Positions 2,057-18,684 of a DNA stretch of 64,000 nucleotides are shown here, piece by piece. The notes under the pieces are model-generated. The model did no database searches. It saw nothing but the letters and a program-made list of their open reading frames with translations, and was not told the DNA's origin. The stretch is taken from positions 1 to 64,000 of IMG/VR virus record IMGVR_UViG_3300046557_000512, one strand, 5' to 3'. The stretch is from a virus. Every line of letters begins with the position of its first letter. Position 1 is the first letter of the stretch. The translations under genes and the position numbers were made by a program.

Positions 2057-4014
2057 GCCGTCCGCACCTCACTGATGCCGTTCTTCTTCTCGACCACCAT
2101 CGTGTTGCGACAGTAGGCGCCGATATCGTTGTGGCTGATAACCAAGACCGTTCCGCGGTCGCGCGCCTTCTCCTCGAGCACGCCCATCAGGCGCTCGAGT
2201 CCGGCGTCATCCAGCGCGTCGTCGATCTCGTCACCGACGAACAGCGCGAGCGACTTGCTTGCGCGGCTGGCGACGAGGTCCTGGAGGGCGAGGAAGCACG
2301 CGAGGCGCACCTTGCGCTTCTCACCTCCGGACAGGTTCTTGAACGACGGCGCCGAGTTCGCTTTCTCGACCGCGATCGAGAATTTCTCCTGCAGATCCTT
2401 GCCGTTCTTGGAGAGCGTGAGCGTGGTCCAATGCGCCTCGATCAGCCCGTCGGTCAGTGACCCCAGGTAATGCGCGGTGCGTTCGTTGAGATAGGGCGTC
2501 GCCTCATCGAGACGGTGCGCACGCACGCCGGCTGGGGCGAACACATCGACCACCGCCTGGGCGTATTCTTCCTCCTCGGCACACTTGACGATAGCCTCAT
2601 TGCCGAGCCGCATCTGCTCGGCCCACTTCTTGAGCTCTTCGTCGAGCGTGGCGACCATCGCGTCGTAAGGATTCTGCTCGGACGCGATCGACTTGAAGCT
2701 ATCATTCGCCTGGATGGCGATCTGCTTCAGGCGTTCAACCTCGCGCCCCTTGGCCTGGACGATCGACAGCTCCCGCTGCAGCGCCGAAAGGCGCGCAGTC
2801 TCGGTGGACACGTCGGTCATGCTGGCGCGGTGATCAGTCAAGGTCTTGTCGGCCGCGGCGATAAGCCTGTCGACCTGGGGAAGCTTCGCCTCCGCCGCTT
2901 CGCGATCAGTTACAGTCTGGAGATATTGACTGTTGAAGGTGTCACGACGAGCTTCCGACGACGCGATCGCAGCCGCCAAGTGCCCTTGCTCGAGAGGGCG
3001 TCCGCAGTCGTTGCAGGGCTTGCCGACACCGTTCTTCGTGTCATCTACCGCTTGCGCCATGCGATCGCGATCGCTCAATGCCCTGGCTTCCGCCGCCTTC
3101 TTTATGGCAATGTTGCTCTCGACGGCCTGGCGCGTGCTGCGCGCGGTGGTCAGATCGCTCAGTAGATCACGCTCGCGGACCTGTTCGCTGGCGACCGCGG
3201 CGATCGCTGTCTCGCATGTTGTGATCGCCGCCCTGAGTTCGATCTCCTCATTGGGGTCGAGCGCGTCGAACGCCACCTTCGCCTCGGTCGCCAGAGTCAC
3301 GGCGTGCGCTCGCGCGTTGGTGATGCGCTGACCCTGGTTCGCGTTCCAGCTATCGCGGGACGTCGTCTGCTGCGTCATGTGGTCACGCGTCTGCGTGTGT
3401 CGGTCGGTTACGCGGTCGAGGTTGATTTGCACCTCAGCGCGCTTTGTAGCGGTCTCCCGCGCACGTTCGCGCGCGGTCTCATACGCTCGCGACAGCACGT
3501 CGACGCCGGCGGCCTCCTCCACGAGCAGCTTCAGCTGCTTGTCGGTCATCGACGGCAGGTCAGGCATTGCCTCCTGACCCGAATAGACCGCGGAGTTGAA
3601 CACGCTCATCGAGCAGCCGAGCATCTTCTCGACCAGCTTCTGCGTCTCGGGCGTGGTGCCCTTGGAGATGTCGGTGCCGTTGTGGAACAGCTGCAGGGCG
3701 TTCTTCAGCTTCGGATACTTCCGATGCCGGACCACCGTGTAGACGTCGCCGTTATCGTCGTGGATGTCCCAGCCGACACGCGTGCCCTTGCCGAGCGCCG
3801 TGTTGACGACGTCATCACCGGACACGCCGCGCGCAGTCTCACCCCAGAGGCACCATGACAGCGCGTCGCCGAGCGAGCTCTTGCCGGCGCCGTTCGAGTC
3901 AGCGGCCGTCTCGTCGCTGATACCGGAGATGTGGACCAGGCCCCTGCTATCGAGGTTGATCTTCGCCTTGCCGATCGTCAGGAACGCTTCGATCTCGCCG
4001 TCACCGAAGCGCAT
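2053..4014 (-). CDS. SbcC/gp46-like recombination ATPase
   Basis: A 653-residue SMC/Rad50-type ATPase. The N-terminus carries a Walker A loop (SNGAGKSSLGDALSW, about residues 40-54). A long coiled coil follows, with a zinc-hook-like CNDC at about residue 330. The C-terminus has the ABC signature LSGGEKRKVRLA, a Walker B acidic pair in GDEIDD, and the H-loop VISHND. With the SbcD-like nuclease it should form the gp46/gp47-type complex that resects DNA ends. At 653 residues it is nearer T4 gp46 than E. coli SbcC. The gene is packed between overlapping neighbours. Confidence 0.85.
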   Translation of the reverse strand: MRFGDGEIEAFLTIGKAKINLDSRGLVHISGISDETAADSNGAGKSSLGDALSWCLWGETARGVSGDDVVNTALGKGTRVGWDIHDDNGDVYTVVRHRKYPKLKNALQLFHNGTDISKGTTPETQKLVEKMLGCSMSVFNSAVYSGQEAMPDLPSMTDKQLKLLVEEAAGVDVLSRAYETARERARETATKRAEVQINLDRVTDRHTQTRDHMTQQTTSRDSWNANQGQRITNARAHAVTLATEAKVAFDALDPNEEIELRAAITTCETAIAAVASEQVRERDLLSDLTTARSTRQAVESNIAIKKAAEARALSDRDRMAQAVDDTKNGVGKPCNDCGRPLEQGHLAAAIASSEARRDTFNSQYLQTVTDREAAEAKLPQVDRLIAAADKTLTDHRASMTDVSTETARLSALQRELSIVQAKGREVERLKQIAIQANDSFKSIASEQNPYDAMVATLDEELKKWAEQMRLGNEAIVKCAEEEEYAQAVVDVFAPAGVRAHRLDEATPYLNERTAHYLGSLTDGLIEAHWTTLTLSKNGKDLQEKFSIAVEKANSAPSFKNLSGGEKRKVRLACFLALQDLVASRASKSLALFVGDEIDDALDDAGLERLMGVLEEKARDRGTVLVISHNDIGAYCRNTMVVEKKNGISEVRTA

Positions 4015-4180
4015 TACGGACCTCCCGTGCTTCGGTGACGATGCAGGCTAGGCTAACGCAGCCGAGAAGTAGGGCGCCACTCGCCAGGAAATATTGGTGC
4101 TTTCCGACCAAGTGGCAGACCAGACCCGCGGATGCTGCCGCGCCGATCATGCTGCAGATGATCCAGGGGATGTGTTTCAC
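4001..4180 (-). CDS. Tiny predicted membrane protein, 59 aa (GTG start)
   Basis: It lies exactly between the SbcD-like and SbcC-like genes. Its GTG at 4180 overlaps the SbcD-like stop (GTGA), and its stop is inside the SbcC-like gene, 14 nt past that start. The product has two hydrophobic stretches (IPWIICSMIGAAASAGLVC and FLASGALLLGCVSLACIV) separated by HLVGKHQY, so two membrane passes are likely. Function unknown. Placing a membrane protein inside an end-processing nuclease pair is unusual. Confidence 0.55.
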   Translation of the reverse strand: MKHIPWIICSMIGAAASAGLVCHLVGKHQYFLASGALLLGCVSLACIVTEAREVRNALR

Positions 4181-5232
4181 GAGCTTGCCTCCGTCGTCGT
4201 CAACACGTCGAGCGCCATCGTGGCGATGCGGTCGCGGTCGAGCTTGGTTTCGAGATGATCGCGGGCGAAGCTGGTCACCGCAGCGGCCAGGGTCAGACCT
4301 GGCGCTACGTTGGTGACCCCGCGGATGGTCGGTCGCTTCTTGCTGGAGTGGTCGACAATGCCGAGCGCGCCGACCTGCTCACACGCTTTGCGCGTGAGCA
4401 GGATCGCCGCTTCTTCCTCGTCTTGCAGGCGCAGGCGAACGTAGCTGCCGCGGATGTTGTCGGGGATGGCCTCACCAAGCCCAATCGGTTTGTCGACATT
4501 GACGAACTTGGGCGCGTTGCTCTCGATCTGCCCGACGCCGTTGTCGTCGACCATGAGCCACCCTGCGAGCGTGCCGGGATCGCTCCAGTTCTGATGCGAG
4601 GTAGCGCCGATCGACCAGACACCGCCGCCGAAATCGATCTGGTTGTGATAGTGCCCAGCGAACACACGATCGTAGCCGAGCATCTTGAGCTCGTCGGCCT
4701 CGAGACCGTGGTCGGGGATGCCTTTGATGACGCCATTCACCGGCGCGTGGATGACTAGATCGCCGGCACGGCCGACACCCCAGGCCATCGTCTTGCGGAG
4801 CTCGTCGAGGTCCTGGATCCAGGGCACCATGAAGACGCCGCCATCGAGGACGGTCGGCTGCGTGATCGCGGTGAAGCCGGGGATCTCATCGAGGGCCTGC
4901 ATGGCATTGCCCAGCGTGTTGCTGAACACGTCCTCGAGATCGTGGTTGCCCGCGATCGCCGCGACCTTCAGCCCCATCTCGACGCAAATCCGCTTGAAGG
5001 TCGCAATCGTGGGGTTCATCACCGAAGGGGTGATCTTGCCGCGGACGTGAAAGAGGTCGCCGGCAAGCAGCATCTGCCCCCACCCGCGTGCCTTGGTCAC
5101 CTCCGCCTGACGGATCAGTTCGTCGAGGATGATCTGCAGACGGCTGTTCACGCCATCGGCGGTGATGGAGGAGAAGACGGACCAGTCGTGACAGTGATGG
5201 TCGCTCGACAACGAGTAGGGGATGAATGTCAT
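4177..5232 (-). CDS. SbcD/gp47-like recombination nuclease
   Basis: A 351-residue calcineurin-like phosphoesterase of the Mre11/SbcD family. Metal-binding motifs appear in order: SSDHHCHDW near the N-terminus, LLAGDLFHVRG, AGNHDLEDV, VIHAPVNG and AGHYHNQIDFG. I chose MTFIPYSLSSDHH (ATG at 5232) as the start because it overlaps the preceding small gene's stop as ATGA and puts the first metal motif at the expected distance; 18 extra in-frame residues upstream look spurious. It should act with the SbcC-like ATPase in double-strand-end processing. Confidence 0.85.
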   Translation of the reverse strand: MTFIPYSLSSDHHCHDWSVFSSITADGVNSRLQIILDELIRQAEVTKARGWGQMLLAGDLFHVRGKITPSVMNPTIATFKRICVEMGLKVAAIAGNHDLEDVFSNTLGNAMQALDEIPGFTAITQPTVLDGGVFMVPWIQDLDELRKTMAWGVGRAGDLVIHAPVNGVIKGIPDHGLEADELKMLGYDRVFAGHYHNQIDFGGGVWSIGATSHQNWSDPGTLAGWLMVDDNGVGQIESNAPKFVNVDKPIGLGEAIPDNIRGSYVRLRLQDEEEAAILLTRKACEQVGALGIVDHSSKKRPTIRGVTNVAPGLTLAAAVTSFARDHLETKLDRDRIATMALDVLTTTEASS

Positions 5233-6426: not shown

Positions 6427-6762
6427 TCAGAGGGTAATGCCATTGCTTTGCAGGATCGCGCTGAACGCCGGCGTTAGCTCCGGGCTATATTCGCGGACGT
6501 AGGCCATCATGCCTCGCATGGACTGCTCGACCTTACGGCGGCGCTCGACCTGCTCGTTGTTGTAGCGAAGCAGTTCGCCGATGCGCTCCTGGGCCACCGT
6601 GCGATCCAAGTTCAACCGCTCACGCAGATCGCGGCCGATGCTCTTGACGAGGTAGTCGCTGTCGATGCCAAGCTCTGTCAGGACAGACGCTGCCAGGCGA
6701 ACGTCCCGTGCGCGCGGCTTGCGCTGGTAGACCAGGCGCATGATCCAGTTCTTCAACATCAT
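6427..6762 (-). CDS. Hypothetical helical protein, 111 aa, RecA operon
   Basis: The ATG at 6762 overlaps the RecA-like stop (ATGA). The protein is basic and mostly helical (ASVLTELGIDSDYLVKSIGRDLRERLNL; NEQVERRRKVEQSMRGMMAYV). No known motif is visible. It ends the exonuclease-RecA operon, so a recombination accessory role is conceivable but unproven. Confidence 0.55.
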   Translation of the reverse strand: MMLKNWIMRLVYQRKPRARDVRLAASVLTELGIDSDYLVKSIGRDLRERLNLDRTVAQERIGELLRYNNEQVERRRKVEQSMRGMMAYVREYSPELTPAFSAILQSNGITL

Positions 6763-7856
6763 TCGGCCTCCGGGGCCAGGGCCGCGAGCGCCGCTGCTAC
6801 GTCATCCTCGTTGTCGCTGAGCTCAGGCGCGACCTGCGCACCATTCTCAGCGATGTCGAGCAAACGACCAAGCGCATCGGGCTGGGCATTCAGGATCGGC
6901 GACAGCTGCGACTGGTAGAGCTTCTTGCCTTCCCAGACGATATATGCACCGGACGTCTCCAGCTTTCCTTTTGCGCGCAGATGCGTGAGCATCGAGTCGA
7001 TCACGTCGATGTAGCCGGTGCCGTCTTCGTTGAACTTGAACTCGAACTCCGTTTTCATGAACGGGCGATAGGTCTTGTTCTTGATCGCCTCGAGGCGGAT
7101 CGTCTGCCCGGTGACCTCCTTGGTGTCCTTCTTGTTGTCCTTGTTCATCGAGCGGGCGAGATAGATCTTCACGGCGTCGTAATAGAACATCGCCTCACCA
7201 CCCGGCGTGTAGCGCGGGTCGCCATGCAGCACGCCTGGCTTCAGGCGCATCTGGTTGAGGAAGATCGCGAGGATGTTGTTCTCGACCACGAACTGGTTGA
7301 ACGCCGGCAGCTCCTGGCTGAAAGCTGTCGCGAGCGCGAGCTTGTCGCGCATGTTCAGCGCCTCGCCGGGCTTGCGCGGCTCGAGCTTAGCGGCCGGGAC
7401 CATCGCAGCCGCAGAGTCGAACACGCAGACCAACGGAGCTTCGAAGGGGATGACGTCAGCTTTGCGGATCGTGCCCATCCAATCGATGGCCTGGTCGAAC
7501 GATTCCTCAAGGCACCGCGGGCGGCGATAGGTCCAGATGCCGGGCTCGATCGAGCCACCGAAGCGTTCGAACAGCGACGGAATAAAGGTGCGCTCGTGGT
7601 CATGGAAAGCGCCAGCGCCGCCAGCGATCTGTGCTTCCTTGATGACGTGCTGCGAAAGCAGCGTCTTACCGGCCGAGGCGGGCGAGGCTATCTCGACGAT
7701 GCGCGAGGACTTGAGGCCGCCCCCGCGATACTTTCCCGACAGGGCGAAGTCGACGTTGGGGATGCCGGTCGACAGATGGAGACCGCTGTCGGCAATGACG
7801 TCGGAGGTAACCTTCCCCTTTGTCAGGGCGGCAGCGAGGGCGTTGGCGATGCTCAT
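6759..7856 (-). CDS. RecA/UvsX-like strand-exchange recombinase
   Basis: A 365-residue RecA-fold protein, the central enzyme of homologous pairing. The start is MSIANALAA at 7856, overlapping the exonuclease stop as ATGA; a 28-residue in-frame extension upstream is discarded. The P-loop reads SPASAGKT, with Ser where RecA has the first Gly. HDHERTF corresponds to the catalytic Glu region, VCVFDSAAAM to Walker B, and LNQMRLKPGV to DNA-binding loop L2. The C-terminal tail is acidic. With SSB, UvsY-like and SbcCD-like proteins nearby, the phage carries its own T4-like recombination system. Confidence 0.88.
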   Translation of the reverse strand: MSIANALAAALTKGKVTSDVIADSGLHLSTGIPNVDFALSGKYRGGGLKSSRIVEIASPASAGKTLLSQHVIKEAQIAGGAGAFHDHERTFIPSLFERFGGSIEPGIWTYRRPRCLEESFDQAIDWMGTIRKADVIPFEAPLVCVFDSAAAMVPAAKLEPRKPGEALNMRDKLALATAFSQELPAFNQFVVENNILAIFLNQMRLKPGVLHGDPRYTPGGEAMFYYDAVKIYLARSMNKDNKKDTKEVTGQTIRLEAIKNKTYRPFMKTEFEFKFNEDGTGYIDVIDSMLTHLRAKGKLETSGAYIVWEGKKLYQSQLSPILNAQPDALGRLLDIAENGAQVAPELSDNEDDVAAALAALAPEAE

Positions 7857-8809
7857 GCGAATTTTTCCTGTGCTTGGATGAAAGGCTTTGCCCACACCTC
7901 GACGTTGCGGAGGATCGAACCGAACGACAGCTGAGCGCACAGCTCGCTGAAGGCTTTCAGGTCGATGTCGCCGCGGGTCGCGCGAAGATTGGTGGGCTGG
8001 GGAATGGAGGGGTGGCCGAGATCCATCAGTTCGAGCGCAAACTCGAACCGGACCTGAGCTTGGGTGTCGGCGTGGAATTTCTTCAGGCCGCTCCAGGTGC
8101 GGGGCATGACGCCGTGGTGGTGCAGCATGCGCCCCTCCACCGTCGCGATGTTGGCCTGCAGGAACTCGTGAACGTCATCGAACACGGCGAGCATGTCGAT
8201 CGCGCCCTTCTCACCGACGCCCGTCTTGGGCTTCACATTGTCGCCGTCGTCGCCCTGCAGGGCCTTCGCGTGAATGAAAGCCTTCTGGGTGCGGAACTTG
8301 GTGAACTCGTGGAAGTTGGCCGCGGTGCATTTGCGATCGATCTTGTGATCGTCCCACACGACACCGTTCTCGACGAGCTGGATCCAGTCTTTGTCGCCGG
8401 TGACCAGGATGACCTGATCGCCCATGCGCAGCGCGCGTCGCGTCATGATGGCGGCGAGATCGTCCGCTTCCATGTTGCCCGCGATCAGCTGGGGCATGCC
8501 GAGGTAATGAAGTGCGCGAACCAATAGGCTCTTTTGCGCCTTGTAGCGCTCGCGATCCGCGACCTTCTCGGGGGTGTCGTCGCGGGTGCCCTTGTAATCA
8601 GCGAAGCGCTCGTAGCGCCAGCTGCGACCGTCCCACAGGGTGACCGGCCGCGATATGGAGCTCTCGAGGATCTTGCGGATCGTCCCAAGCGCGCCATAGA
8701 TCGCGGTGGTCTCCTGTGAGCCGGCGGTGAGACGCTTACCCTTTCGGGCCGAGGCGGCGTAACCGATAGAATTGCCGTCGATGTAGGTCCGAAGGGTCAT
8801 GTGTGTCAT
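7853..8809 (-). CDS. 5'-3' exonuclease / flap endonuclease (FEN-like)
   Basis: About 318 residues. LRTYIDGNSIGYAA at the N-terminus, DYKGTRDDTP, MEADDLAAIMTRRAL, LVTGDKDWIQLV and a helix-hairpin-helix-like TGVGEKGAIDML give the acidic metal sites and the DNA-binding turn of the PolI 5'-exonuclease/RNase H (T4 rnh) family. It probably removes RNA primers and 5' flaps. The start is unusual: the family core begins at once, no SD exists, and the candidate ATGs (8809 or 8800) lie inside the conserved leader element at 8800-8819, which suggests leaderless translation. Confidence 0.82.
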   Translation of the reverse strand: MTHMTLRTYIDGNSIGYAASARKGKRLTAGSQETTAIYGALGTIRKILESSISRPVTLWDGRSWRYERFADYKGTRDDTPEKVADRERYKAQKSLLVRALHYLGMPQLIAGNMEADDLAAIMTRRALRMGDQVILVTGDKDWIQLVENGVVWDDHKIDRKCTAANFHEFTKFRTQKAFIHAKALQGDDGDNVKPKTGVGEKGAIDMLAVFDDVHEFLQANIATVEGRMLHHHGVMPRTWSGLKKFHADTQAQVRFEFALELMDLGHPSIPQPTNLRATRGDIDLKAFSELCAQLSFGSILRNVEVWAKPFIQAQEKFA

Positions 8810-8819
8810 TCACCATGCA
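8800..8819 (-). promoter_or_regulatory. Conserved leader element, copy 3 (exonuclease-RecA)
   Basis: Minus strand reads TGCATGGTGAATGACACACA and is followed directly by TGACC. The exonuclease start codon is inside the element, and a terminator ends 3 nt upstream. Confidence 0.75.
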
Positions 8820-8821
8820 AA

Positions 8822-8858
8822 GGGGGCGAGGCTGGGTCGCTTAATTGACCTCGCCCCC
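8822..8858 (-). terminator. Rho-independent-like terminator after the SSB gene
   Basis: A 10-bp GC stem (GGGGGCGAGG / CCTCGCCCCC) with a 17-nt loop, followed on the minus strand by TTT. It lies between the SSB-like stop and the next leader element. Confidence 0.6.
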
Positions 8859-8899
8859 AACACGATCGCCGACAAGGAGCCGGCCGGCGATCGCACTAC

Positions 8900-9994
8900 T
8901 TAGCCGAGCGATGCGAGGATCGCGTCGATGTCCGAAGCGCCGCCGGTAGGAGCGGCGGGGGTTGCGGTGACATCCTGCGGCGCCGTGACGACCGCGGGGG
9001 CAGGGGTCGGCGCCGGGGTCGGCGTGACCGCGACTGCCGGGGTGGGGGCCACCTCGACGAACACCGCGTCCTGGATCACCGGCTGCTCGACAACCACGGT
9101 GGCAGGGATAACCACCTGAGCCGGGGCAACGCCGGTAGCGCCGCCACCATCGATACCCGCAACCATCGCCGCGATGTCGGCGTCAACCGCAGTGGTCACG
9201 GTCGCAGCAGCGACGGCGACTGCCGGGGTGGGGGCCACGGTTGCCGGCGCGGCGAGCGCACCAGCAGCGGCCGCCGGGGCGGCGAGCACGTCGCGGGCCG
9301 AACCAGCGCCGACGTTGACGCCCAACTTCGCGAGCACGCCCAGGGCCTTCTGGTCCTTCGCTTCGAACAGCGCGGTGACCCAGGCGTCCATGTCGATCAG
9401 CTTCTCGAGGATCTGCGGGCCGAGCGGCGCTGCCTGCGGGGTCGCCAAGAACGTATACTTGGTATCGTTCTTGCCGGTGCCTTCGCGGGTGCACTTGAAG
9501 ACGTGACCGCGAGCAAGGCTCGACAGGTCATAGGTGTCGTCCATGTCCAGATACATCCCGAACTGAGCCAGGATGAGCTCGAACTGGGTGTCGGACACTT
9601 CGACCAACTGCGGCTCGGTCGGCGCGACTTCCTTATCGTTCAGGATCAGCGCCTGGAAGACGTTGCGCGGGCCGCCCAACATTTCTTTGAAGTGATCCTT
9701 GATGTCAGGCGCGGCCGCATGCTTCATGCCCTCGAAGACCATCTCGCGAATGGGGTCTTCCTCGCCGTAGGTGAGGAACTTGTCGCCGATGACGACCAGG
9801 TCCTTGCCGTCGAACGACTTGAGGTAGAGCTGGCCGAACGTGCGCCACCACTCACCGACCTGGTCCTTGGCGGGCAGGATGCGGAACAGCGTGTCGCCGA
9901 CCTTGAACTTGTAGCATTTCTGACCGCGCTGGCGACCGGCGGCGATGTCGCCCCGCTTCGCTGCGATCTTTTCCTTCATCGATAGTGCAGACAT
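8900..9994 (-). CDS. Single-stranded DNA-binding protein, gp32-like
   Basis: About 364 residues. The core contains KFKVGDTLFRILPA, EWWRTFGQLYLKSF, and FKCTREGTGKNDTKYTFLATPQ, the beta-barrel pattern of T4 gp32-like phage SSBs. The second half is a long Ala/Pro/Val/Thr-rich linker ending in ASDIDAILASLG, comparable to the acidic partner-recruiting tails of SSBs. I use the ATG at 9994 (MSALSMKEK), with AAGGAG upstream; a GTG at 10006 sits on top of the SD. It heads its own transcription unit and is flanked by a terminator, suggesting high expression. Confidence 0.7.
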   Translation of the reverse strand: MSALSMKEKIAAKRGDIAAGRQRGQKCYKFKVGDTLFRILPAKDQVGEWWRTFGQLYLKSFDGKDLVVIGDKFLTYGEEDPIREMVFEGMKHAAAPDIKDHFKEMLGGPRNVFQALILNDKEVAPTEPQLVEVSDTQFELILAQFGMYLDMDDTYDLSSLARGHVFKCTREGTGKNDTKYTFLATPQAAPLGPQILEKLIDMDAWVTALFEAKDQKALGVLAKLGVNVGAGSARDVLAAPAAAAGALAAPATVAPTPAVAVAAATVTTAVDADIAAMVAGIDGGGATGVAPAQVVIPATVVVEQPVIQDAVFVEVAPTPAVAVTPTPAPTPAPAVVTAPQDVTATPAAPTGGASDIDAILASLG

Positions 9995-10011
9995 TGGTTT
10001 CGTCACTCCTT

Positions 10012-10078: not shown

Positions 10079-10594
10079 TTACGTCGCTGCGGGTGCGTCG
10101 TCGGTGACGCCAGTCCGCGCCATGGACGCAATGCGGCGCTGCCGATAATCTTCGGCTGTCGTCCGCGCGTTCTGCACGGTCATGCTGCCCTGCATCTGCG
10201 CGCGCGTCATGTGCCCCATGTTGGTGATCATCTCGGATCGGGTGCGGAACGCGAACATCGCGGCCTTACAAACGGTCTCGATCTCCTGGGCATCGATGAG
10301 CCAGCCGGTCACCTGCCGCACCTGGGGATCGAGATCGACCAGCTCTTTCACGAGATCAGCCGTGGCCTTCTCGCCGGCGGCCGCGAGCTCGCCGCGGATC
10401 CGCTTTGCGGTTGCGGCGCGCATCGTCTTGTCGAGCAGCTTGACCTTGCCCAGCTGTTTCTCGGACCCGGCGTGCTTGATGCTGTAATAGGCGCACATCT
10501 GAGTTTGCGTGCGCATCGCCTCGTTGAGATCGTCGAGGCCACCGTCGACCTCTTGAAGGAACTTGTCGACGTCGATGAATTGGTCAAGTTGCAA
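10079..10594 (-). CDS. UvsY-like recombination mediator (putative)
   Basis: 171 helical residues starting at a TTG (10594) with AAGGAA 9 nt upstream. The order of segments, CAYYSIKHAGSEKQLGKVKLL, then a basic helix, then DPQVRQVTGWLIDAQEIETVCKAA and a final basic RTRSEMITNMGHM, resembles T4 UvsY (a short helical protein with 'YSKW...H' and a late 'FCSGALDAIKSRG'). UvsY loads UvsX onto gp32-coated ssDNA, and this gene sits directly beside the gp32-like SSB. The match is by pattern and context, not by a database search. Confidence 0.5.
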   Translation of the reverse strand: MQLDQFIDVDKFLQEVDGGLDDLNEAMRTQTQMCAYYSIKHAGSEKQLGKVKLLDKTMRAATAKRIRGELAAAGEKATADLVKELVDLDPQVRQVTGWLIDAQEIETVCKAAMFAFRTRSEMITNMGHMTRAQMQGSMTVQNARTTAEDYRQRRIASMARTGVTDDAPAAT

Positions 10595-10635: not shown

Positions 10636-13600
10636 TTAGGGAGCGCAACCCCCATCGATCAATCTTTTGACCTGATTAAACAGACCGGCGAGCGTCTCGC
10701 GCTTGCCCTCGTCATGGTAGATCTGGCTTGGGTTGAATCCGATGATGACCGTGGCGTCCAGGTCTGCCGAGAAGGCCACCTTGCCGACGTGTTCCGCCTG
10801 TCCGCCCTTCAGGTCAGGGAAGAACATGCGGGTCGATTGAGGTCCGAGCGTGAGGATCACCGGCGGTTTCAGAATGTCGATCTCGCGCTTGAGGAAGGGT
10901 AGGGCGGTCGCCATCTCGCTCGCAGGCACCTCGCGCTCACCCTTCCGCTTGGGGCGACGCGCGCACCAGGTCCAGCACGCGTGGTCGACTTGCAACCCTG
11001 CGTCGGTCAGCGCAGGGCGGATGAACTCGACGAAGCTATATGCCTTAGGCAGCGGGTCGTAGTCATTGAGCGGCGCATCAAGGATCACCATGAAGCGGGG
11101 ATCATCACCGGGGTGGCAGGGGACCGCCGCGTTGCCGAGTGCGGCGAACATGTCGCCTGCCACGTTCGCCATGGCGTCGCCCGTTGGCCCGTCGACGGCG
11201 ATCACGCGCTCGGCGACCACAGCCTGGTCCATCACGCCGGGCATGAGCTCGATCTGATCGCGCTTGCGGCGCGCATCGGTTGCCGAAAGCTGACCTGGCT
11301 CGATGAGGCTGAACGCGCCGACCTTGTCGAGGTTCTCGATACCGCGGCTGGTAAGCACCCGGCCAGGCAGTCGCGCGCGGACGTCATCGATCGACACGAA
11401 GCGACCCGGCCCCCATTGGGTTTGGATCATCTCGCGAGCCTTGCCGCGCAACCCGTTCGACTTCTCCGTAATCACCGGCTCAGGGCTCGTGCGCGCCTCG
11501 ACGATCGCCTCGGCGCACTTGGATGAGACGTGCATGACGGCCGACAGCGGCGCTGCGATGATGACGTCGTTGATCGGCTCGAACATCGCTGTCGAAACGT
11601 TGATGTTCGGCGGAATGATCGTGATGCCATCCTCGTTTGCCTGCTTGATGATCGACGGCAGCTTGTCGGGGTGACTCACCGAGAGAGCGGCGGCATAGAA
11701 CTCGATCAGATAGTGGCTCTTGAGCCAGGCCGCCTGGTAGGCGATCAGCGTGTATTCGACGGCGTGGCTGCGGTTGAACGCGTAGCCGGCGAACTTCTCG
11801 ATCGAGTCGAACAGCGCGATCGCGGCGTTGGGCTGCATGTTGCTGACGGCTTGGGCGCCCTGCACGAACTTGTCGCGCTGCTGGGCCATCATGACAGGGT
11901 CTTTCTTACCCATCGCCTTGCGCAGCACGTCAGCCTCACCGGGCGTGAAGCCGCACAGCGCCCGCGCGGTCTGCATCACCTGCTCCTGATAGCAGATGAC
12001 CCCATAGGTGGCGCGAAGGACGGGCTCGAGGATCGGATTGTCGTAGGTCACCGGCGCGATGCCAGCTCGCCGCTCGATATATGCCTCGCACAGGCCGGCG
12101 TCGAGCGGACCAGGGCGGTTGAGCGCGTTCAGCGCCACGAGATCCTCGAATGTCAGCGTGTCTGATTTTGCCATCTGCTTGAGCAGGCGGCGCACCGAAG
12201 CGCCTTCAAACTGAAAGACACCGGCAGTCTTGGCCTTGGAGAAGACGGCGAGCGTATCAGCGTCGAACAGGTCGAGGCTGTTGAGGTCGATCTTTTTGCT
12301 GTGACGCTGGAAGATCAGCTTCAAGGCATAGTCGAACACGTCGAGCGTCGCGAGGCCCAGCACGTCGAGTTTCACAAGGCCCTGGTCCTCGCTCACGCGC
12401 TTGTCCCAGTTGATGACGCGGCCGTCAGAACGACGCTCGATCACCGCACGGTTGACGATGTCCTCGCCCGCGACGACGACGCCAGCGGCGTGCTGCCCGA
12501 ACGCGCGCATCTTGCCTTCAAGCGCGACCGCCTGGCTCCAGACAAGCGGGTGCTCCTCGGCGAACATTTCCACTTCACCGACGGTCTGCTTGGCTTCCTC
12601 GAGCGTCGCCGAGATGCCGTGGGTGTCGCCGATGAACTTGGTGATCGGCGCCAGGTCGAGGCGATCGTGAATGCGGAGCACCGATCGCAGCGCGTCGCGC
12701 GCGCCCATGGTGTTGTAGTTGACGATGCCGGCGACGCGCGCCTCGCCATACTTGTCGCTCAGGTATCGAATGACCTCTTCGCGGCGGGTCGACATGAAGT
12801 CGAGATCGGCGTCGGGAAGGTCGAGGCGATCCGGGTTGATGAAACGTTCGAACAGCAGATCGAAGCGGATCGGATCTACATCGGTGATGCCCATCAGATA
12901 CGCGACAAGCGAACCGCCGACCGACCCGCGGCCTGGTCCGACCAGGATCCCCTGAGCCTTGGACCAGCGCACCAGATCGGCAACCAGCAGGAAGTATTGG
13001 CTGAAGCCAAGCCGCATCAGCGTGTCGAGCTCGAACTTGAGACGCGGCACATAGGTGTCGGCGATCTCTTGGGGCGTCGGCTGGTGACCGAACACTGGCG
13101 CGGTGAAGCGCTCGCGAATGCCCGTCTTGCACGCCTCGAGGAGCGCGGCGTCTGGGTCAGTTGCGATGACGGGAAGGCAGGGGTCCTGTTTCGCCCAGCT
13201 ATACTGACACAGGTCGACCAGGCGCGCGGTGTTCTTGATGCCGGTTACGAACGCATCGAGGCTGGCCTGTGCGCCTTGAGCACCGGCGGTGTTGTATCGA
13301 ACGGTCAGCGCGTCCGCTGCAGACTTGGCTGCCTTGACCAGCGGCTCCACGGCGAGCGGCACAAAATCGGTCGCCGGGCGCAGGTAGTCGAAATAGGGAC
13401 GGTTCTCGGCGATCGACGCGTTGATCGAATAAACCAGCGCGTTGTCGCCCTCCCAGAACATCGGCTGGATGGTGATCGGTTCGGCGCCCATCGCTTGACC
13501 GATCGTGCGGGCGCGGTGGTTCTGCCGACTGAAATAGGGTGTCGCGCTCGGCACCAGCTCATAGAACACCGCAGCAAAGCGTGCCGTCTCGTTAAGCTGC

Positions 13601-14046
13601 ATCAGGTGTCGCGCGCTGTCCTGACGCTGCACAGCGCTCTCCAGGTCACCGGTCGTCAGCACGACATGCTCGGTCGCGACCAGTTCGCGAATGTCATCCC
13701 AGGTAACGCGCGCGTTGTAGTAGAAGCGATCGGCCTCGAAGCCGCGGGAGATCAGGCGATAGATCGATTGCAGTCCAACGAGGTCGATCGGCCATAGCTT
13801 GATGAAGCTCAGCGTCGCTTCCTTCTCGGCAGCGTCGACCACGCGGATGCGCGCGCCCACAACGACCTTCTTGCCGGCCTTGGCGAACGCCTTGCTCGCG
13901 TCGATCAGCGAGGACACGGACATCGTGTCGCAGATGCCGACGACGTCGGTCTGCAGATCCTCGGCGATCTTGACGAGGTTCTTCACAGCGATCGTTGATT
14001 CGCCGAGCGAAAAGTCGGTGCGGCCGCCAAGGGCAGGGTAGATCAT
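10636..14046 (-). CDS. dnaE: DNA polymerase III alpha subunit with C-terminal UDG-like domain
   Basis: 1136 residues; the replicative polymerase. The N-terminal PHP-like domain (1-70) has lost the usual HxHS motif (here LGGRTDFS), so it is probably inactive. The Pol core has GPGRGSVGGS (about 370) and the catalytic PDADLDF (411-417), with the third Asp in LVKLDVLGLATLDVF. After the finger and HhH regions, residues about 985-1130 (MVILDAPLNDYD; WTWCARRPKRKG; PPVILTLGPQSTRMFF; VIIGFNPSQIYHD) match the layout of family 4/5 uracil-DNA glycosylases. No OB-fold tail is evident. The start overlaps the preceding gene as ATGA. Confidence 0.88.
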   Translation of the reverse strand: MIYPALGGRTDFSLGESTIAVKNLVKIAEDLQTDVVGICDTMSVSSLIDASKAFAKAGKKVVVGARIRVVDAAEKEATLSFIKLWPIDLVGLQSIYRLISRGFEADRFYYNARVTWDDIRELVATEHVVLTTGDLESAVQRQDSARHLMQLNETARFAAVFYELVPSATPYFSRQNHRARTIGQAMGAEPITIQPMFWEGDNALVYSINASIAENRPYFDYLRPATDFVPLAVEPLVKAAKSAADALTVRYNTAGAQGAQASLDAFVTGIKNTARLVDLCQYSWAKQDPCLPVIATDPDAALLEACKTGIRERFTAPVFGHQPTPQEIADTYVPRLKFELDTLMRLGFSQYFLLVADLVRWSKAQGILVGPGRGSVGGSLVAYLMGITDVDPIRFDLLFERFINPDRLDLPDADLDFMSTRREEVIRYLSDKYGEARVAGIVNYNTMGARDALRSVLRIHDRLDLAPITKFIGDTHGISATLEEAKQTVGEVEMFAEEHPLVWSQAVALEGKMRAFGQHAAGVVVAGEDIVNRAVIERRSDGRVINWDKRVSEDQGLVKLDVLGLATLDVFDYALKLIFQRHSKKIDLNSLDLFDADTLAVFSKAKTAGVFQFEGASVRRLLKQMAKSDTLTFEDLVALNALNRPGPLDAGLCEAYIERRAGIAPVTYDNPILEPVLRATYGVICYQEQVMQTARALCGFTPGEADVLRKAMGKKDPVMMAQQRDKFVQGAQAVSNMQPNAAIALFDSIEKFAGYAFNRSHAVEYTLIAYQAAWLKSHYLIEFYAAALSVSHPDKLPSIIKQANEDGITIIPPNINVSTAMFEPINDVIIAAPLSAVMHVSSKCAEAIVEARTSPEPVITEKSNGLRGKAREMIQTQWGPGRFVSIDDVRARLPGRVLTSRGIENLDKVGAFSLIEPGQLSATDARRKRDQIELMPGVMDQAVVAERVIAVDGPTGDAMANVAGDMFAALGNAAVPCHPGDDPRFMVILDAPLNDYDPLPKAYSFVEFIRPALTDAGLQVDHACWTWCARRPKRKGEREVPASEMATALPFLKREIDILKPPVILTLGPQSTRMFFPDLKGGQAEHVGKVAFSADLDATVIIGFNPSQIYHDEGKRETLAGLFNQVKRLIDGGCAP

Positions 14047-14594
14047 AGGAGCTCCAGGACGGGGCCGGCGTAGCGTGCGCGACCCATTGAGATGAGAAAG
14101 GAAGCCTCGCGGCGAACCGCGCGCATCGAATAGCTTTCAGTGTGTTGGCGATGCTCGCGAAGTTCCGCAGCCAGGTCGTCAAGCGTCGCGGGTGAACTTC
14201 TCAGACGACCGACGACAATGCCGAGATTGCGTGACAGCGTCGCGAGTGCGTTGCGGTCGCAGGTGCGAGGGTCAATCTTGTCGCGACCACAGCGCGCTGC
14301 TGTCGCTTCGTGCGTCGCGTCGCGGTAATCATGCGCGAGACCGACCGCGATCAATGACTCATCTCGCAGCGCACGCTTGCGCGTCGCTCGCTCGCCGCGG
14401 GTCAGCCAGGCGTGGCTCATCGGCTTGCCTTCGGCGTCGTTGAAGCGGTCAAGCAACATGATGACCTTGGGGCGCAGGTCCGCCACGCGATCTTGGCAAC
14501 CGACGCGCGCGGGACAGCCTTGGCAGGTTGGGGTCTTGTGGTCGTAGGCGATCATCGAGCCAAAACAACCGGGTGGGCTTTGCATGTGTGTCAC
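14043..14594 (-). CDS. Hypothetical Cys-rich (metal-binding?) protein, 183 aa
   Basis: The N-terminus holds CFGSMIAYD followed by CQGCPARVGC, four cysteines spaced as in a zinc or Fe-S site. The remainder is helical and Arg-rich. The start is inside the leader element: GTG at 14594 or ATG at 14585, neither with an SD. It is translationally coupled to DnaE through ATGA, so it may be a polymerase accessory. Function not recognised. Confidence 0.55.
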   Translation of the reverse strand: MTHMQSPPGCFGSMIAYDHKTPTCQGCPARVGCQDRVADLRPKVIMLLDRFNDAEGKPMSHAWLTRGERATRKRALRDESLIAVGLAHDYRDATHEATAARCGRDKIDPRTCDRNALATLSRNLGIVVGRLRSSPATLDDLAAELREHRQHTESYSMRAVRREASFLISMGRARYAGPVLELL

Positions 14595-14698: not shown

Positions 14699-15973
14699 TC
14701 AGCCTCCGAACACGCGCTGCGCGACCTGGCGCACAGCTTCGGCTTCTGTCTTGTTGAGGCGATTGATAAAGTTGAGATCGAGACCGTGGCGAAACTTGCC
14801 GCCCGTCGCGACGCCCTTCTTGGCGGCGCCGAGCACCTCGCGGGGGCTGATGGGCAGGCTGATCTCGCCCGCCTCATATTGCTCACGCACGCGCTCGGCG
14901 ACCTCGCGCAGCTTGGCGGCGATGTCCTGCTTCACCCCGATCCGGTTGATGATCATCTGGATCTCAACCTCCTTGGAGGGGTAGTCGATCCTGATGGACG
15001 TACCGAAGCGCGAGTAGTTCGCGGCGTTGCCGATTTTCGTGCCGGAGTAGAGGCCCGTATCGTCGCCCGACCCATTGGTATTGCCCGTCGCGACGAACCG
15101 GAAGTTCGCGTGCGGCTTGACCAGACGCATCGATGGCGGCGCCTCTTTGATGTAGAGCGCCTTGCCCTCGAGCACCGGCTGATAGACCGCAAGGACACCA
15201 GGGTGGGCGACGTCGTATTCATCGGCGAGATAGGTCCAGCCGTTAATCATCGCCACCGCGAGAGGCCCATAGTCGAAGTGGGTTGCGCCTTCGCGCACCA
15301 CCATCTGACCTATGATATGGCTTTCTTCGGTCGTGTCCGTGTGCTGGACGCGAATCATCGGACGATTGGTGCGCGCCAGGATCTGCTCGAGGAACGACGT
15401 CTTGCCCGTGCCGTGCGGCCCGTAGGCGTAGAGGTTGTCGTTGAGCGCGAGGCTCATCAACGCGTCCTTCAGCTCGTCGACGCGGAACACATAGTCATTG
15501 TCGATCTCAGCCACCGCCTCCTGGCTTTCGGCCGAGTTGCCGACCAGCACGTCAATCTTGATGACGTCACCCTCGGCCGCACCACGGCGGGGTGCGGTGC
15601 GCGCGCTTGCATCGAGCGGCAGGCCGAACACCTGATACATCGGCTTGCGCTCGACAGTGTCAGGGCGGGCGAACGGAATAATCTTTGCTTGGGCAGCCAT
15701 CTCCTGACGAACCTCCTCACGCTTCTCTGCTAGAATGCGCGCCTCAGCGCGATCGAATGCCTGCGACGTAACCGGTGCGTCGGGATACCAGCTCTTGTAA
15801 TCGTCCAGGGTTACCCCGCGGGGCGATGCGGTGGCGGCGCGACTAGCCTGGTGGTTGGCGTCAGCGAGGTGCTTGCCGATGTGGTGCACCGCAGCCCCGC
15901 AGATCTCGCATGTGATGGGGGATTCGTCGAACTCCTCGCTCGACCCCGCCATCGCAACATTGGTCTGTGTCAT
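14699..15973 (-). CDS. MoxR/CobS-like AAA+ ATPase
   Basis: 424 residues. The N-terminus has a zinc-finger-like CEIC...H...H segment (residues about 22-40). The ATPase core has Walker A YGPHGTGKTSF, Walker B TYLADEYD, and sensor-1 FVATGNTN. This is the arrangement of MoxR/CobS ATPases, which remodel proteins with a VWA partner. The next two genes upstream encode a VWA protein and an HExxH protein, completing a CobS/CobT-like set as seen in some phages, where its function is unknown. The start has an SD (GAGGAG) and lies behind leader element copy 7. Confidence 0.8.
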   Translation of the reverse strand: MTQTNVAMAGSSEEFDESPITCEICGAAVHHIGKHLADANHQASRAATASPRGVTLDDYKSWYPDAPVTSQAFDRAEARILAEKREEVRQEMAAQAKIIPFARPDTVERKPMYQVFGLPLDASARTAPRRGAAEGDVIKIDVLVGNSAESQEAVAEIDNDYVFRVDELKDALMSLALNDNLYAYGPHGTGKTSFLEQILARTNRPMIRVQHTDTTEESHIIGQMVVREGATHFDYGPLAVAMINGWTYLADEYDVAHPGVLAVYQPVLEGKALYIKEAPPSMRLVKPHANFRFVATGNTNGSGDDTGLYSGTKIGNAANYSRFGTSIRIDYPSKEVEIQMIINRIGVKQDIAAKLREVAERVREQYEAGEISLPISPREVLGAAKKGVATGGKFRHGLDLNFINRLNKTEAEAVRQVAQRVFGG

Positions 15974-16067: not shown

Positions 16068-17327
16068 TCAGCTGACGAGGAAGCGCTTAAGCGTCGCCAT
16101 CAGCTTCGCCGGCATTTCCTGGAGGTTCTGAATGACCATCGAGTTGGGATAGTAGTTCGTCACGCCGGCGTGCTGGATGCCGACCCCGACGATATCGACA
16201 CCGGCCGCGGCCACTGCCTTGACGGTCTCGGCCGCATGCGCGGGATAGCTCATCGCCCTATGTGACTTTCTCGGCCCCTGGGGTAGGCCATCCGACAGAA
16301 CGATCATCAGCTTGCGCTTGGCTCGCTGCTCGATCAGGCGGCGAGCGGCGAAGTCCACCGCGCAGCCTTCGATCGTGCTGCCCATCGCGATCGCGCCGGC
16401 GGTGTTGTAGACTGCGGCGAACCGACGCTGGATGTCGATCGTGAACGGCTCGCCGAACTCTTTGAACCGGGGGTAGGAAAGCGGCGTAAAGCGGGAGATT
16501 GGCGCGAGCGCGTCGGCATGGTCGACCTCAGCCATATATGCCGCGTCAGGCTGGAAGTGCAGCGTCGTGTAGCCGAGCACCTCGAACGGCACGCCGATGC
16601 GATGAAGCACCGATGCGATTGCATAGGCGGACTTTGTCGCCAGCGCGATCCTGGAGCTGCGGTGAGAGCCGCCATTGTAATTGTTGCCCATTGAGCCGGA
16701 GCAGTCGATCACCAGACTGACAGCCGTGTCGAGCGCGAGCGCTTCCTGCTTGCGATAGAACACGCGGTCATCGCCGCTCACGACGCGGTGAAGCGACGAG
16801 CTGTTTAGCTTTCCCTTGCGCTGCCCCGGCAACCGCACCGATTGCGTGCGGGCTGCGATCAGGCGCGTCAGTTCCTTCTGCAGCGGGCCGACGACCGAGG
16901 CGGTGTCGTTCTGCAGGAACTCGAGGGACACGCCGTGCGTGCCAATGTCGGTGAGCTCGTCCAGGTCCTTCGTGAATACGCGATAGGGCTGGTCCGTCTC
17001 GGCGATCGAGCGCTCGATGAACGCCGACAACATCTCGTCCATGTCCATCAGCTGGTCGGTGTCGATGTTGATGGGTGTGTCCTGCCCGACGTTCGTGTCG
17101 GAGCTGCCTGCGCCTCCGATGCCTTCGTCGGGGATCTCTACGCCGTCATCGTCGTCAGTCCAGGCGCCCAGCTGATCCTCGATGTCGCGCATCTCAATCA
17201 GGTGGTCAGCAAAGGCGCTGTCGCTGACCGCGAGCGCTTCCAGATCGCCCTTCAACGCGTCGGGCCAGGCCGACGAATAGGGTCCGTAGCTATCGACGAT
17301 ATCGACCGCAGAATGAAAGTCCAGCAC
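16068..17327 (-). CDS. VWA-domain protein, CobT C-terminal-like
   Basis: 419 residues. The N-terminal half is acidic and helical; the C-terminal half is a von Willebrand A domain with a MIDAS motif DCSGSMG (about residue 210), the conserved Thr/Ser in AMGSTIEGCAV, and VLSDGLPQG. VWA proteins of this type are substrate adaptors for MoxR/CobS ATPases. It follows the HExxH/acidic protein after 3 nt, as if the two halves of CobT had been split into separate genes. It shares an operon start at 18654-18673 with that gene. Confidence 0.8.
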   Translation of the reverse strand: MLDFHSAVDIVDSYGPYSSAWPDALKGDLEALAVSDSAFADHLIEMRDIEDQLGAWTDDDDGVEIPDEGIGGAGSSDTNVGQDTPINIDTDQLMDMDEMLSAFIERSIAETDQPYRVFTKDLDELTDIGTHGVSLEFLQNDTASVVGPLQKELTRLIAARTQSVRLPGQRKGKLNSSSLHRVVSGDDRVFYRKQEALALDTAVSLVIDCSGSMGNNYNGGSHRSSRIALATKSAYAIASVLHRIGVPFEVLGYTTLHFQPDAAYMAEVDHADALAPISRFTPLSYPRFKEFGEPFTIDIQRRFAAVYNTAGAIAMGSTIEGCAVDFAARRLIEQRAKRKLMIVLSDGLPQGPRKSHRAMSYPAHAAETVKAVAAAGVDIVGVGIQHAGVTNYYPNSMVIQNLQEMPAKLMATLKRFLVS

Positions 17328-17330
17328 GCT

Positions 17331-18638
17331 CTAGCTCCTCAAAATCCGTGCGAGTTCGCGACGAGCGTCCCGCAGCATCTGTTCGACCTCCGAAACACCG
17401 ACGTTCAATTCGCCCGCAATTTCGTCGACCGACTTCTTGAGCTTCTTCTGCATGAAAAGAGCGCGTCTGAGGGTGGGATCGAGCATCGCCAGCGCATCCG
17501 TCATCGTGACGTTGCGGTCGCCATCCTCATCGCTGCCGGCAGGCTCGTCATCATCGCGGTCGCCTTGGTCATTTCCAGACCCAGACGATCCGCCGCCGCA
17601 GTTATCCTGTGGACCGTCGTCGCCATCTCCCTCATCAGCGCCGTCTTGCCCATCGTCCGTGTCGTCAGCATCATCCGATTCGGTGCCGGCGCCGTCATCA
17701 TCGCTCTGGTCATCGCCAGCTGGCTCACCGTCGTCAGGCTCACCGCCTTCATCAGACGCATCGCCTTCGTCATCATCGCCCCCTTCGCTGTCATCACCTT
17801 CGTCTTCGCCGTCAGCGCCGGGCTCAGTGCCAGGCTCGTCGTCATCGTTCGGCTGCGTGTCGTTCTCGGCATCGTCCTCGCGCTCGCCTTGGCCGTCGCC
17901 GTCGCCCTTCTGGGGCTCGTCGTCCTGTTCGGGCTCATCATCCTGATTGTCGTCACTGGGGGGCGGGGGAGGAGGGGCGGGAGGAGCCGGCGGTGGCGGG
18001 GGAGGGGGTGGAGGCGTGAGAGCCTTGTCGAGCGCGAGGACGCACGCCAGCACGTCGTCATAGGTTTCCATCGCCTGGATCTGCGTGCCGAAGCCCGGCA
18101 GGCGATCGAGCAGCGGCTTCATGTGTGGCCAATAGGCGTTGCGGTCCATCAGATCGATGAAGACCTTCTGGCCTCCTAGCGCGCGCATTGTCGGCACGAG
18201 AAGCACCGCGGCGATGTGTGACGGGTCTTTGGCCTCGATCGCCTTGTCAACGCCTGGCTGGATCAAAAGCGGGATCCAGTTCACATACATCCGCTCCAGA
18301 TTGTCTTTGGTGCCGGGCAGGTCGCGCGGCAGCATCTTCTCGAGGCGGATATCCTCGAAGATATTGGCCAGTTTGGCCCGCGAGTTGTCATTGGGGATAC
18401 GCTTGAACGGCGTATAGAAGATGTGGCCACACTCGTGATCGACATAGCCCTGGAGCGCGTCGATCAGCATCTGCGACGGCTCGTCGGGGATCTCGGGGAG
18501 ATTGAGGTGCGAGACCTTGCCCGTGCGCTTGTCGGCCGCGACGTAAGGTGTGACACCGCGGAAGGTGACCTTGACGCCCCGTCGTGTCAGCATGCTGACG
18601 GTGCGCTTTAGCGCCTCCTTCCTGATACTCGTTTGCAT
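17331..18638 (-). CDS. HExxH metallopeptidase-like protein with acidic linker and sigma4-like HTH
   Basis: 435 residues from ATG 18638 (SD GAGGAG). The N-terminal domain contains VDHECGHIFYTP (HExxH, about residue 75) and later NIFEDIRLEK, which could give the third metal ligand, as in VWA-associated metallopeptidase-like domains. It is followed by polyproline and about 170 residues almost entirely of D/E/G/S/N. The last 50 residues (LKKSVDEIAGELNVGVSEVEQML) look like a sigma-70 region-4 helix-turn-helix. It resembles a CobT N-terminal half. A protein combining protease-like, acidic and HTH parts is unusual; substrate unknown. Confidence 0.65.
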   Translation of the reverse strand: MQTSIRKEALKRTVSMLTRRGVKVTFRGVTPYVAADKRTGKVSHLNLPEIPDEPSQMLIDALQGYVDHECGHIFYTPFKRIPNDNSRAKLANIFEDIRLEKMLPRDLPGTKDNLERMYVNWIPLLIQPGVDKAIEAKDPSHIAAVLLVPTMRALGGQKVFIDLMDRNAYWPHMKPLLDRLPGFGTQIQAMETYDDVLACVLALDKALTPPPPPPPPPAPPAPPPPPPSDDNQDDEPEQDDEPQKGDGDGQGEREDDAENDTQPNDDDEPGTEPGADGEDEGDDSEGGDDDEGDASDEGGEPDDGEPAGDDQSDDDGAGTESDDADDTDDGQDGADEGDGDDGPQDNCGGGSSGSGNDQGDRDDDEPAGSDEDGDRNVTMTDALAMLDPTLRRALFMQKKLKKSVDEIAGELNVGVSEVEQMLRDARRELARILRS

Positions 18639-18653
18639 GTCGCTCCTCGTGCG

Positions 18654-18673
18654 TGTGTGTTGTTCTATATGCA
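18654..18673 (-). promoter_or_regulatory. Conserved leader element, copy 8 (HExxH/VWA operon)
   Basis: Minus strand reads TGCATATAGAACAACACACA, followed by GAGGAG and the start at 18638. Confidence 0.7.
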
Positions 18674-18684
18674 CTCACTAGCAC

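Follow-up and report, generated by a model that had tools for sequence, protein, structure and literature searches.

A phage-plasmid DnaE polymerase with a uracil-DNA glycosylase fold, apparently glycosylase-dead, at its C-terminus

The dnaE locus and its replicon

The stretch of viral DNA analyzed here (the window) consists of positions 1 to 64,000 of the uncultivated virus record IMGVR_UViG_3300046557_000512, which is 80,301 bases long. The interval 10636-14046 encodes a DnaE-type DNA polymerase III alpha subunit of 1136 amino acids with a C-terminal uracil-DNA glycosylase (UDG)-like domain. The original prediction had placed the gene at these same coordinates, and the strand can now be given as minus: the plus-strand frame over the interval is closed by stops, and the sole ORF lies on the minus strand. 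On one side of dnaE is a gene for a CobS/MoxR-like AAA ATPase (14699-15973, minus), a conserved neighbor of dnaE in the relatives, and on the other side are genes for a gp32-like SSB, a 5'-3' exonuclease and a RecA/UvsX-like recombinase (6759-10006, minus), in the same order as in the relatives. Small ORFs without any Pfam family over the cut-off flank dnaE itself (14043-14594 and 10079-10594, both minus), and the relatives likewise carry small uncharacterized ORFs on both sides of the gene. The CobT-like VWA gene (16068-18674, minus) is represented by two consecutive ORFs here versus one in most relatives; the upstream ORF ends in a stretch that resembles sigma-70 region 4 (residues 392-441, E 3e-6), and a sigma-factor gene lies nearby in the relatives.

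A plasmid-type replication initiator, RPA (PF10134; 20041-21135, minus), which is a phage-plasmid marker, is found beside terminase, portal and tail fiber genes. This combination of an initiator with structural genes, along with the order cobT-cobS-dnaE-SSB-exo-recA (gene order as read), identifies the replicon as an SSU5-type phage-plasmid, and its host is probably Sphingomonas or a relative. The arrangement of cobT/cobS-like genes upstream of dnaE and SSB, 5'-3' exonuclease and RecA genes downstream recurs in Rhizobium phages, Pseudomonas phage nickie, Stenotrophomonas phage ANB28, and Klebsiella and Escherichia phage-plasmids, and dnaE genes of the UDG type are also present on plasmids of Acinetobacter, Cupriavidus, Methylobacterium, Shinella and Sinorhizobium. 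In total, more than 80 related loci from phages and phage-plasmids were seen to carry this type of dnaE, 80 of them from IMG/VR; the latter were recovered with the full protein and then with the alignment, and patterns made from the C-terminus only matched nothing in IMG/VR. The clade of the window protein includes members from a 109-kb IMG/VR genome, with a tail identity of 64%, and from two Sphingomonas records, at 52-54%. One close relative (NZ_FORV01000002.1, Sphingomonas sp. NFR04; L108) resides on a contig of 855,747 bases, far larger than a phage-plasmid, so that this dnaE copy may be integrated or located on a megaplasmid. Some phage-plasmids of the widespread type that bear such a polymerase carry resistance genes (PMC9600943).

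A DnaE core with a family-4 UDG fold in place of the tail

The identification of the protein as DNA polymerase III alpha, also part of the original prediction, is borne out by Pfam, which detects, in this order, PHP (residues 9-140), DNA_pol3_alpha, the finger domain, HHH_6 and UDG (PF03167; residues 983-1116), and by a Z score of 43.3 to the E. coli alpha subunit (2hnh). Taking Pfam together with an AlphaFold model and a column census of 48 sequences, we delineate a PHP domain (residues 1-280; 13207-14046, minus; PF02811, 42.9 bits), a palm-thumb-fingers polymerase core (residues 281-806; 11629-13206, minus), a region around the tandem helix-hairpin-helix (HhH) assigned from HHH_6 and the model (residues 807-912; 11311-11628, minus), and a family-4 UDG-like domain (residues 952-1136; 10639-11193, minus). 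The catalytic aspartates 412, 414 and 561 are invariant in 48 of 48 sequences, and this triad, with PHP, Pol3, fingers and HhH following one another in the expected order, places the protein within the C (DnaE) family. In the PHROGs collection, the phage DnaE family matches residues 1-938 whereas the unnamed phrog_4335 matches residues 740-1130.

The PHP domain has lost its metal ligands, as had been noted from the sequence. According to the census of the same 48 sequences, the HxH motif is GxR in the window protein and mostly A/G/S-x-R/K in the relatives, and a further, E-type ligand position is occupied by R, so that the metal-binding histidines of an active PHP exonuclease are missing. The PHP domain of E. 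coli alpha is degenerate too, and the condition of the domain in the present protein is therefore ordinary.

The tail is a different matter. In the full-length AlphaFold model (48 sequences; pLDDT 88.9), residues 1-920 match E. coli alpha (Z 43.3, 32% identity) and residues 952-1133 match family-4 UDG (Z 20.7), which implies that the OB fold and the tau-binding C-terminal domain (CTD) of E. coli alpha, a typical though not universal DnaE tail, are absent and have been replaced outright. The PF03167 match of the window protein exceeds the threshold (26.0 bits vs a cut-off of 24.3); the family is matched individually by 15 of 15 diverse relatives, and when a profile of these 15 was compared to the PDB, the best hit was the family-4 UDG 4zbx (E 1.8e-16), followed by Thermus thermophilus (Tth) UDGa, T. 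maritima UDG and UdgX, with no further match below E 0.1. A separate model of residues 840-1136 (66 sequences; pLDDT 91.6) likewise resembles family-4 UDGs best, with Z 20-21 and an rmsd of 2.2-2.7 across 172-179 residues, for example 1l9g (Z 21.0, rmsd 2.5, 179 residues aligned) and 4zbx (Z 20.9). By similarity to UDGa both in sequence (E 1.8e-16) and in fold (Z 21), the domain thus belongs to family 4 of the UDG superfamily. Fold prediction clearly excludes an OB fold and any other DnaE tail known so far, and no OB fold appears among the structural matches to residues 952-1136. The proposal that DnaE is fused at its C-terminus to a domain of the UDG superfamily, which takes the position of the OB fold, is therefore upheld by Pfam, profile comparison and AlphaFold in agreement, and the UDG-like stretch first delimited as residues ~985-1130 is real, but the domain starts earlier, at about residue 952.

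The novelty that was implied for this architecture does not stand. Timinskas et al. 2013 (NAR, PMC3919608) described DnaEX polymerases with a UDG domain as extra polymerases of some Y. pestis and S. enterica, in which PHP, Pol3 and HhH2 are followed by an archaeal-type UDG (PF03167) that replaces the OB fold and the CTD. The window protein, with PF03167 after HhH2 in precisely this place, is a distant alphaproteobacterial member of the same group; the enterobacterial phages compared are about 35% identical to it overall. The polymerase of Rhizobium phage RHEph10 (YP_009352305; 41% identical), the record of which carries the annotation 'uracil-DNA glycosylase-like', shares both the architecture and the gene neighborhood, and on Acinetobacter plasmids a separate C-terminal piece is labeled by NCBI as 'uracil-DNA glycosylase family protein'. 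No paper on the mechanism or function of DnaE-UDG, nor on the phiLo polymerase discussed below, was found in the literature. The architecture itself is known; the present analysis contributes its distribution, the finding that the catalytic set is lost throughout the family, and the evidence of selection on the domain.

Loss of the glycosylase residues across the family

The uracil pocket of Tth UDGa is formed by E41, G42, E47, F54, N80 and H155, and the k2/Km of 2.4e5 drops to 94 in H155S, 5.5e3 in N80A and 2.0e3 in E47A (PMC5387724). With the family-4 enzymes of known structure (Tth UDGa, 1ui0; S. tokodaii, 4zbx; T. maritima, 1l9g), the window protein shares the fold, the motif order, the LG strand and the motif-2 proline, but it lacks the uracil-binding asparagine, the catalytic histidine and the 4Fe-4S cysteines. 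Both an altered motif 1 and a change from HPS to NPS in motif 2 had been predicted, and the motif comparison confirms them: the counterpart of motif 1 is ILDAPLNDYD (residues 988-997; 11056-11085, minus), with E41 replaced by D and E47 by Y; that of motif 3 is TWCAR (residues 1026-1030; 10957-10971, minus), with W in the place of the uracil-binding asparagine; and that of motif 2 is NPS (residues 1105-1107; 10726-10734, minus), with N in the place of the catalytic histidine. Accordingly, E41, E47, F54, N80 and H155 read D, Y, Y, W and N, so that one of the five, an aromatic residue, is retained; the best sequences of the family keep two of the five, and none keeps more.

We surveyed the pocket in 85 DnaE-UDG sequences from phages, phage-plasmids and IMG/VR, which are related to one another so that the counts do not represent independent events. 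The uracil-recognizing asparagine (N80) is found in none of the 85, its substitutes being either small or bulky, with no common type, and the histidine (H155) survives in two of 84, the position being otherwise occupied by N (56), S (20), A (5) or K (1); both residues are lost in 83 of the 85 sequences. The position of the stacking aromatic, F54, is mostly L, G, S or M. Other positions are more stable: that of E41 is D in 83 of 84 sequences (D990 of the window protein), E47 is conserved in 69 of 84, with an acid at this position in RHEph10 and Y in the window clade, and the motif-2 proline and the motif-3 Thr/Lys are nearly invariant. The near invariance of D990 and of the motif-2 proline suggests that a ligand pocket may be retained. 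The counterpart of the structural lysine K83, which in UdgX is needed for folding (PMC10776899), is K in 74 and R in 11 of the 85 sequences. None of the 4Fe-4S cysteines is present in the window protein, nor in 49 of the 85 sequences, whereas 33 of the 85 (e.g., L023, L024, L027 and L067) retain cysteines 1, 2 and 4 together, and cysteine 3 is found in none; such a remnant fits descent from a family-4 enzyme. That cysteines 1, 2 and 4 are kept or lost jointly, always without cysteine 3, could mean that a metal site persists in which a different residue completes the coordination.

The window protein thus has neither the pocket set nor the four cysteines of a family-4 enzyme, and, judging from these residues, the domain appears to have retained the fold while the glycosylase chemistry is gone. 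There is no sign of decay: in close pairs for which dN/dS could be measured, saturated pairs being left out, the value for the UDG-like domain is 0.01-0.16; the polymerase core falls in the same range, and the PHP domain is often higher, which indicates that the domain is constrained by purifying selection. The mean pairwise identity is 38% for this domain, compared to 33% for PHP and 57% for the polymerase core. A loss of catalytic residues throughout the family implies that the UDG fold serves a purpose other than the removal of uracil.

What could the UDG-like domain be doing?

We propose that the protein is the replicative polymerase of an SSU5-type phage-plasmid in which the OB and tau-binding domains have been replaced by a glycosylase-dead UDG fold with a non-catalytic role, and we give this reading about an even chance of being correct. 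Under this scenario, the alpha subunit would have swapped its OB fold and tau-binding CTD for a family-4 UDG fold that lost glycosylase activity and was kept for another job, presumably the one that the OB and tau-binding domains would have done, namely to hold the single-stranded template or to dock a partner. The nearest analogy is vaccinia D4, a UDG that serves as a processivity factor. The polymerase seems not to need tau, the contact through which the host enzyme is linked to its clamp loader, and it would use the host sliding clamp, given that the relatives encode none (a beta clamp gene is absent in 10 of 10 genomes). A candidate peptide for the contact with the host beta clamp, suggested by its motif and position, is the conserved QIELMPG after the HhH (residues 931-937; 11236-11256, minus), where the pattern QxELxPG shows Q in 38, E in 40, L in 47 and P in 48 of 48 sequences; the clamp-binding peptide of DnaE sits at the position just after the HhH (PMC3919608). 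The assignment is uncertain because AlphaFold puts residues 925-934 in a helix. AGDMF (residues 965-969), also considered as a clamp motif, is unconserved in the relatives, and QxELxPG was preferred to it. Proofreading would be provided by a separate phage DnaQ-like exonuclease; an exonuclease of this type (RNase_T) is encoded in 9 of 9 other genomes and was not found on the window's own contig, an 80-kb fragment.

Within this framework, docking of a partner accounts for the data as well as holding DNA does. A specific version, in which the UDG fold would hold the phage SSB, helicase or the adjoining CobS/CobT-like ATPase and so replace the host tau, is possible although we consider it doubtful. 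Such a role would agree with the position of the domain in the place of the tau-binding CTD, with the conserved gene order that includes cobS/cobT-like genes, SSB, exonuclease and RecA, and with the acidic character of the domain (mean net charge -2.7; -4 in the window protein), which, slight as it is, tips the balance a little toward docking rather than simple binding of DNA. Against it, the most conserved residues appear, from the alignment, to lie in the old active-site motifs, with no evident new surface.

Another possibility is that the dead pocket is a base sensor that would capture a flipped template base, uracil or a modified one, and stall or steer the polymerase. The near invariance of the motif-1 acid (as Asp), the motif-2 proline and the motif-3 Thr/Lys speaks for such a sensor, and archaeal family-B polymerases, which have a uracil pocket, offer a parallel. 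Furthermore, some family-A polymerases of phages, as noted originally, also bear a UDG-like domain; examples of these replicative polymerases of another family are those of phiLo (PDB 9qhs) and Bacillus phage SP-15. In 9qhs, the title of which includes 'modified template', the match to UDG is N-terminal (residues 34-205). Phage replicases of two unrelated polymerase families have UDG folds attached. Against a sensor, however, none of the 85 sequences has the uracil-recognizing asparagine, and most have lost the stacking aromatic. Nor do the relatives carry a consistent set of uracil or base-modification genes: of 10 genomes, three encode dUTPase and five thymidylate synthase, a pattern that does not tie the domain consistently to uracil or a modified base. 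The suggestion that the domain reads such bases in the template is consequently not supported, and we regard a base sensor as unlikely; that the glycosylase pocket became, across the whole lineage, a template-base reader that checks for a particular base without cutting seems quite improbable. The idea that the domain is still an active glycosylase, coupled to replication but with altered chemistry, for which one could invoke the complete fold in the model and the resemblance of NPS to motif 2 of MUG, is hardly credible, considering that no member has more than two of the five family-4 pocket residues, that N, S, A, K and H all occur at the variable motif-2 position, and that a base-excising replicase would create abasic templates for itself.

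Interrupted dnaE genes

In several relatives, dnaE is split near the position that corresponds to residues 733-745 of the window protein, yielding a PHP-Pol ORF and an HhH-UDG ORF (L025:3717-4514, L037:4225-4518, L057:3623-4491, L086:3557-4497, L090 at about 3929-4497, L094:3532-4443 and L064:834). In L025, the halves are separated by an endonuclease-like ORF in which NUMOD4/HNH was confirmed, and visual inspection places such an ORF there in four other loci; in L037, merely 292 nt separate the halves. The first half gains a similar tail of 45-48 amino acids (VELEDGT...), the similarity being strongest in L025, L037 and L086. A split intein was considered and rejected, with no match to an intein family and no solved structure, and a search of the break with Rfam found no intron. 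More distant phage DnaE genes from IMG/VR loci (L010-L013) are broken near the catalytic palm, after about residue 417 of the window protein, by insertions of ~0.3-3 kb that suggest inteins or introns.
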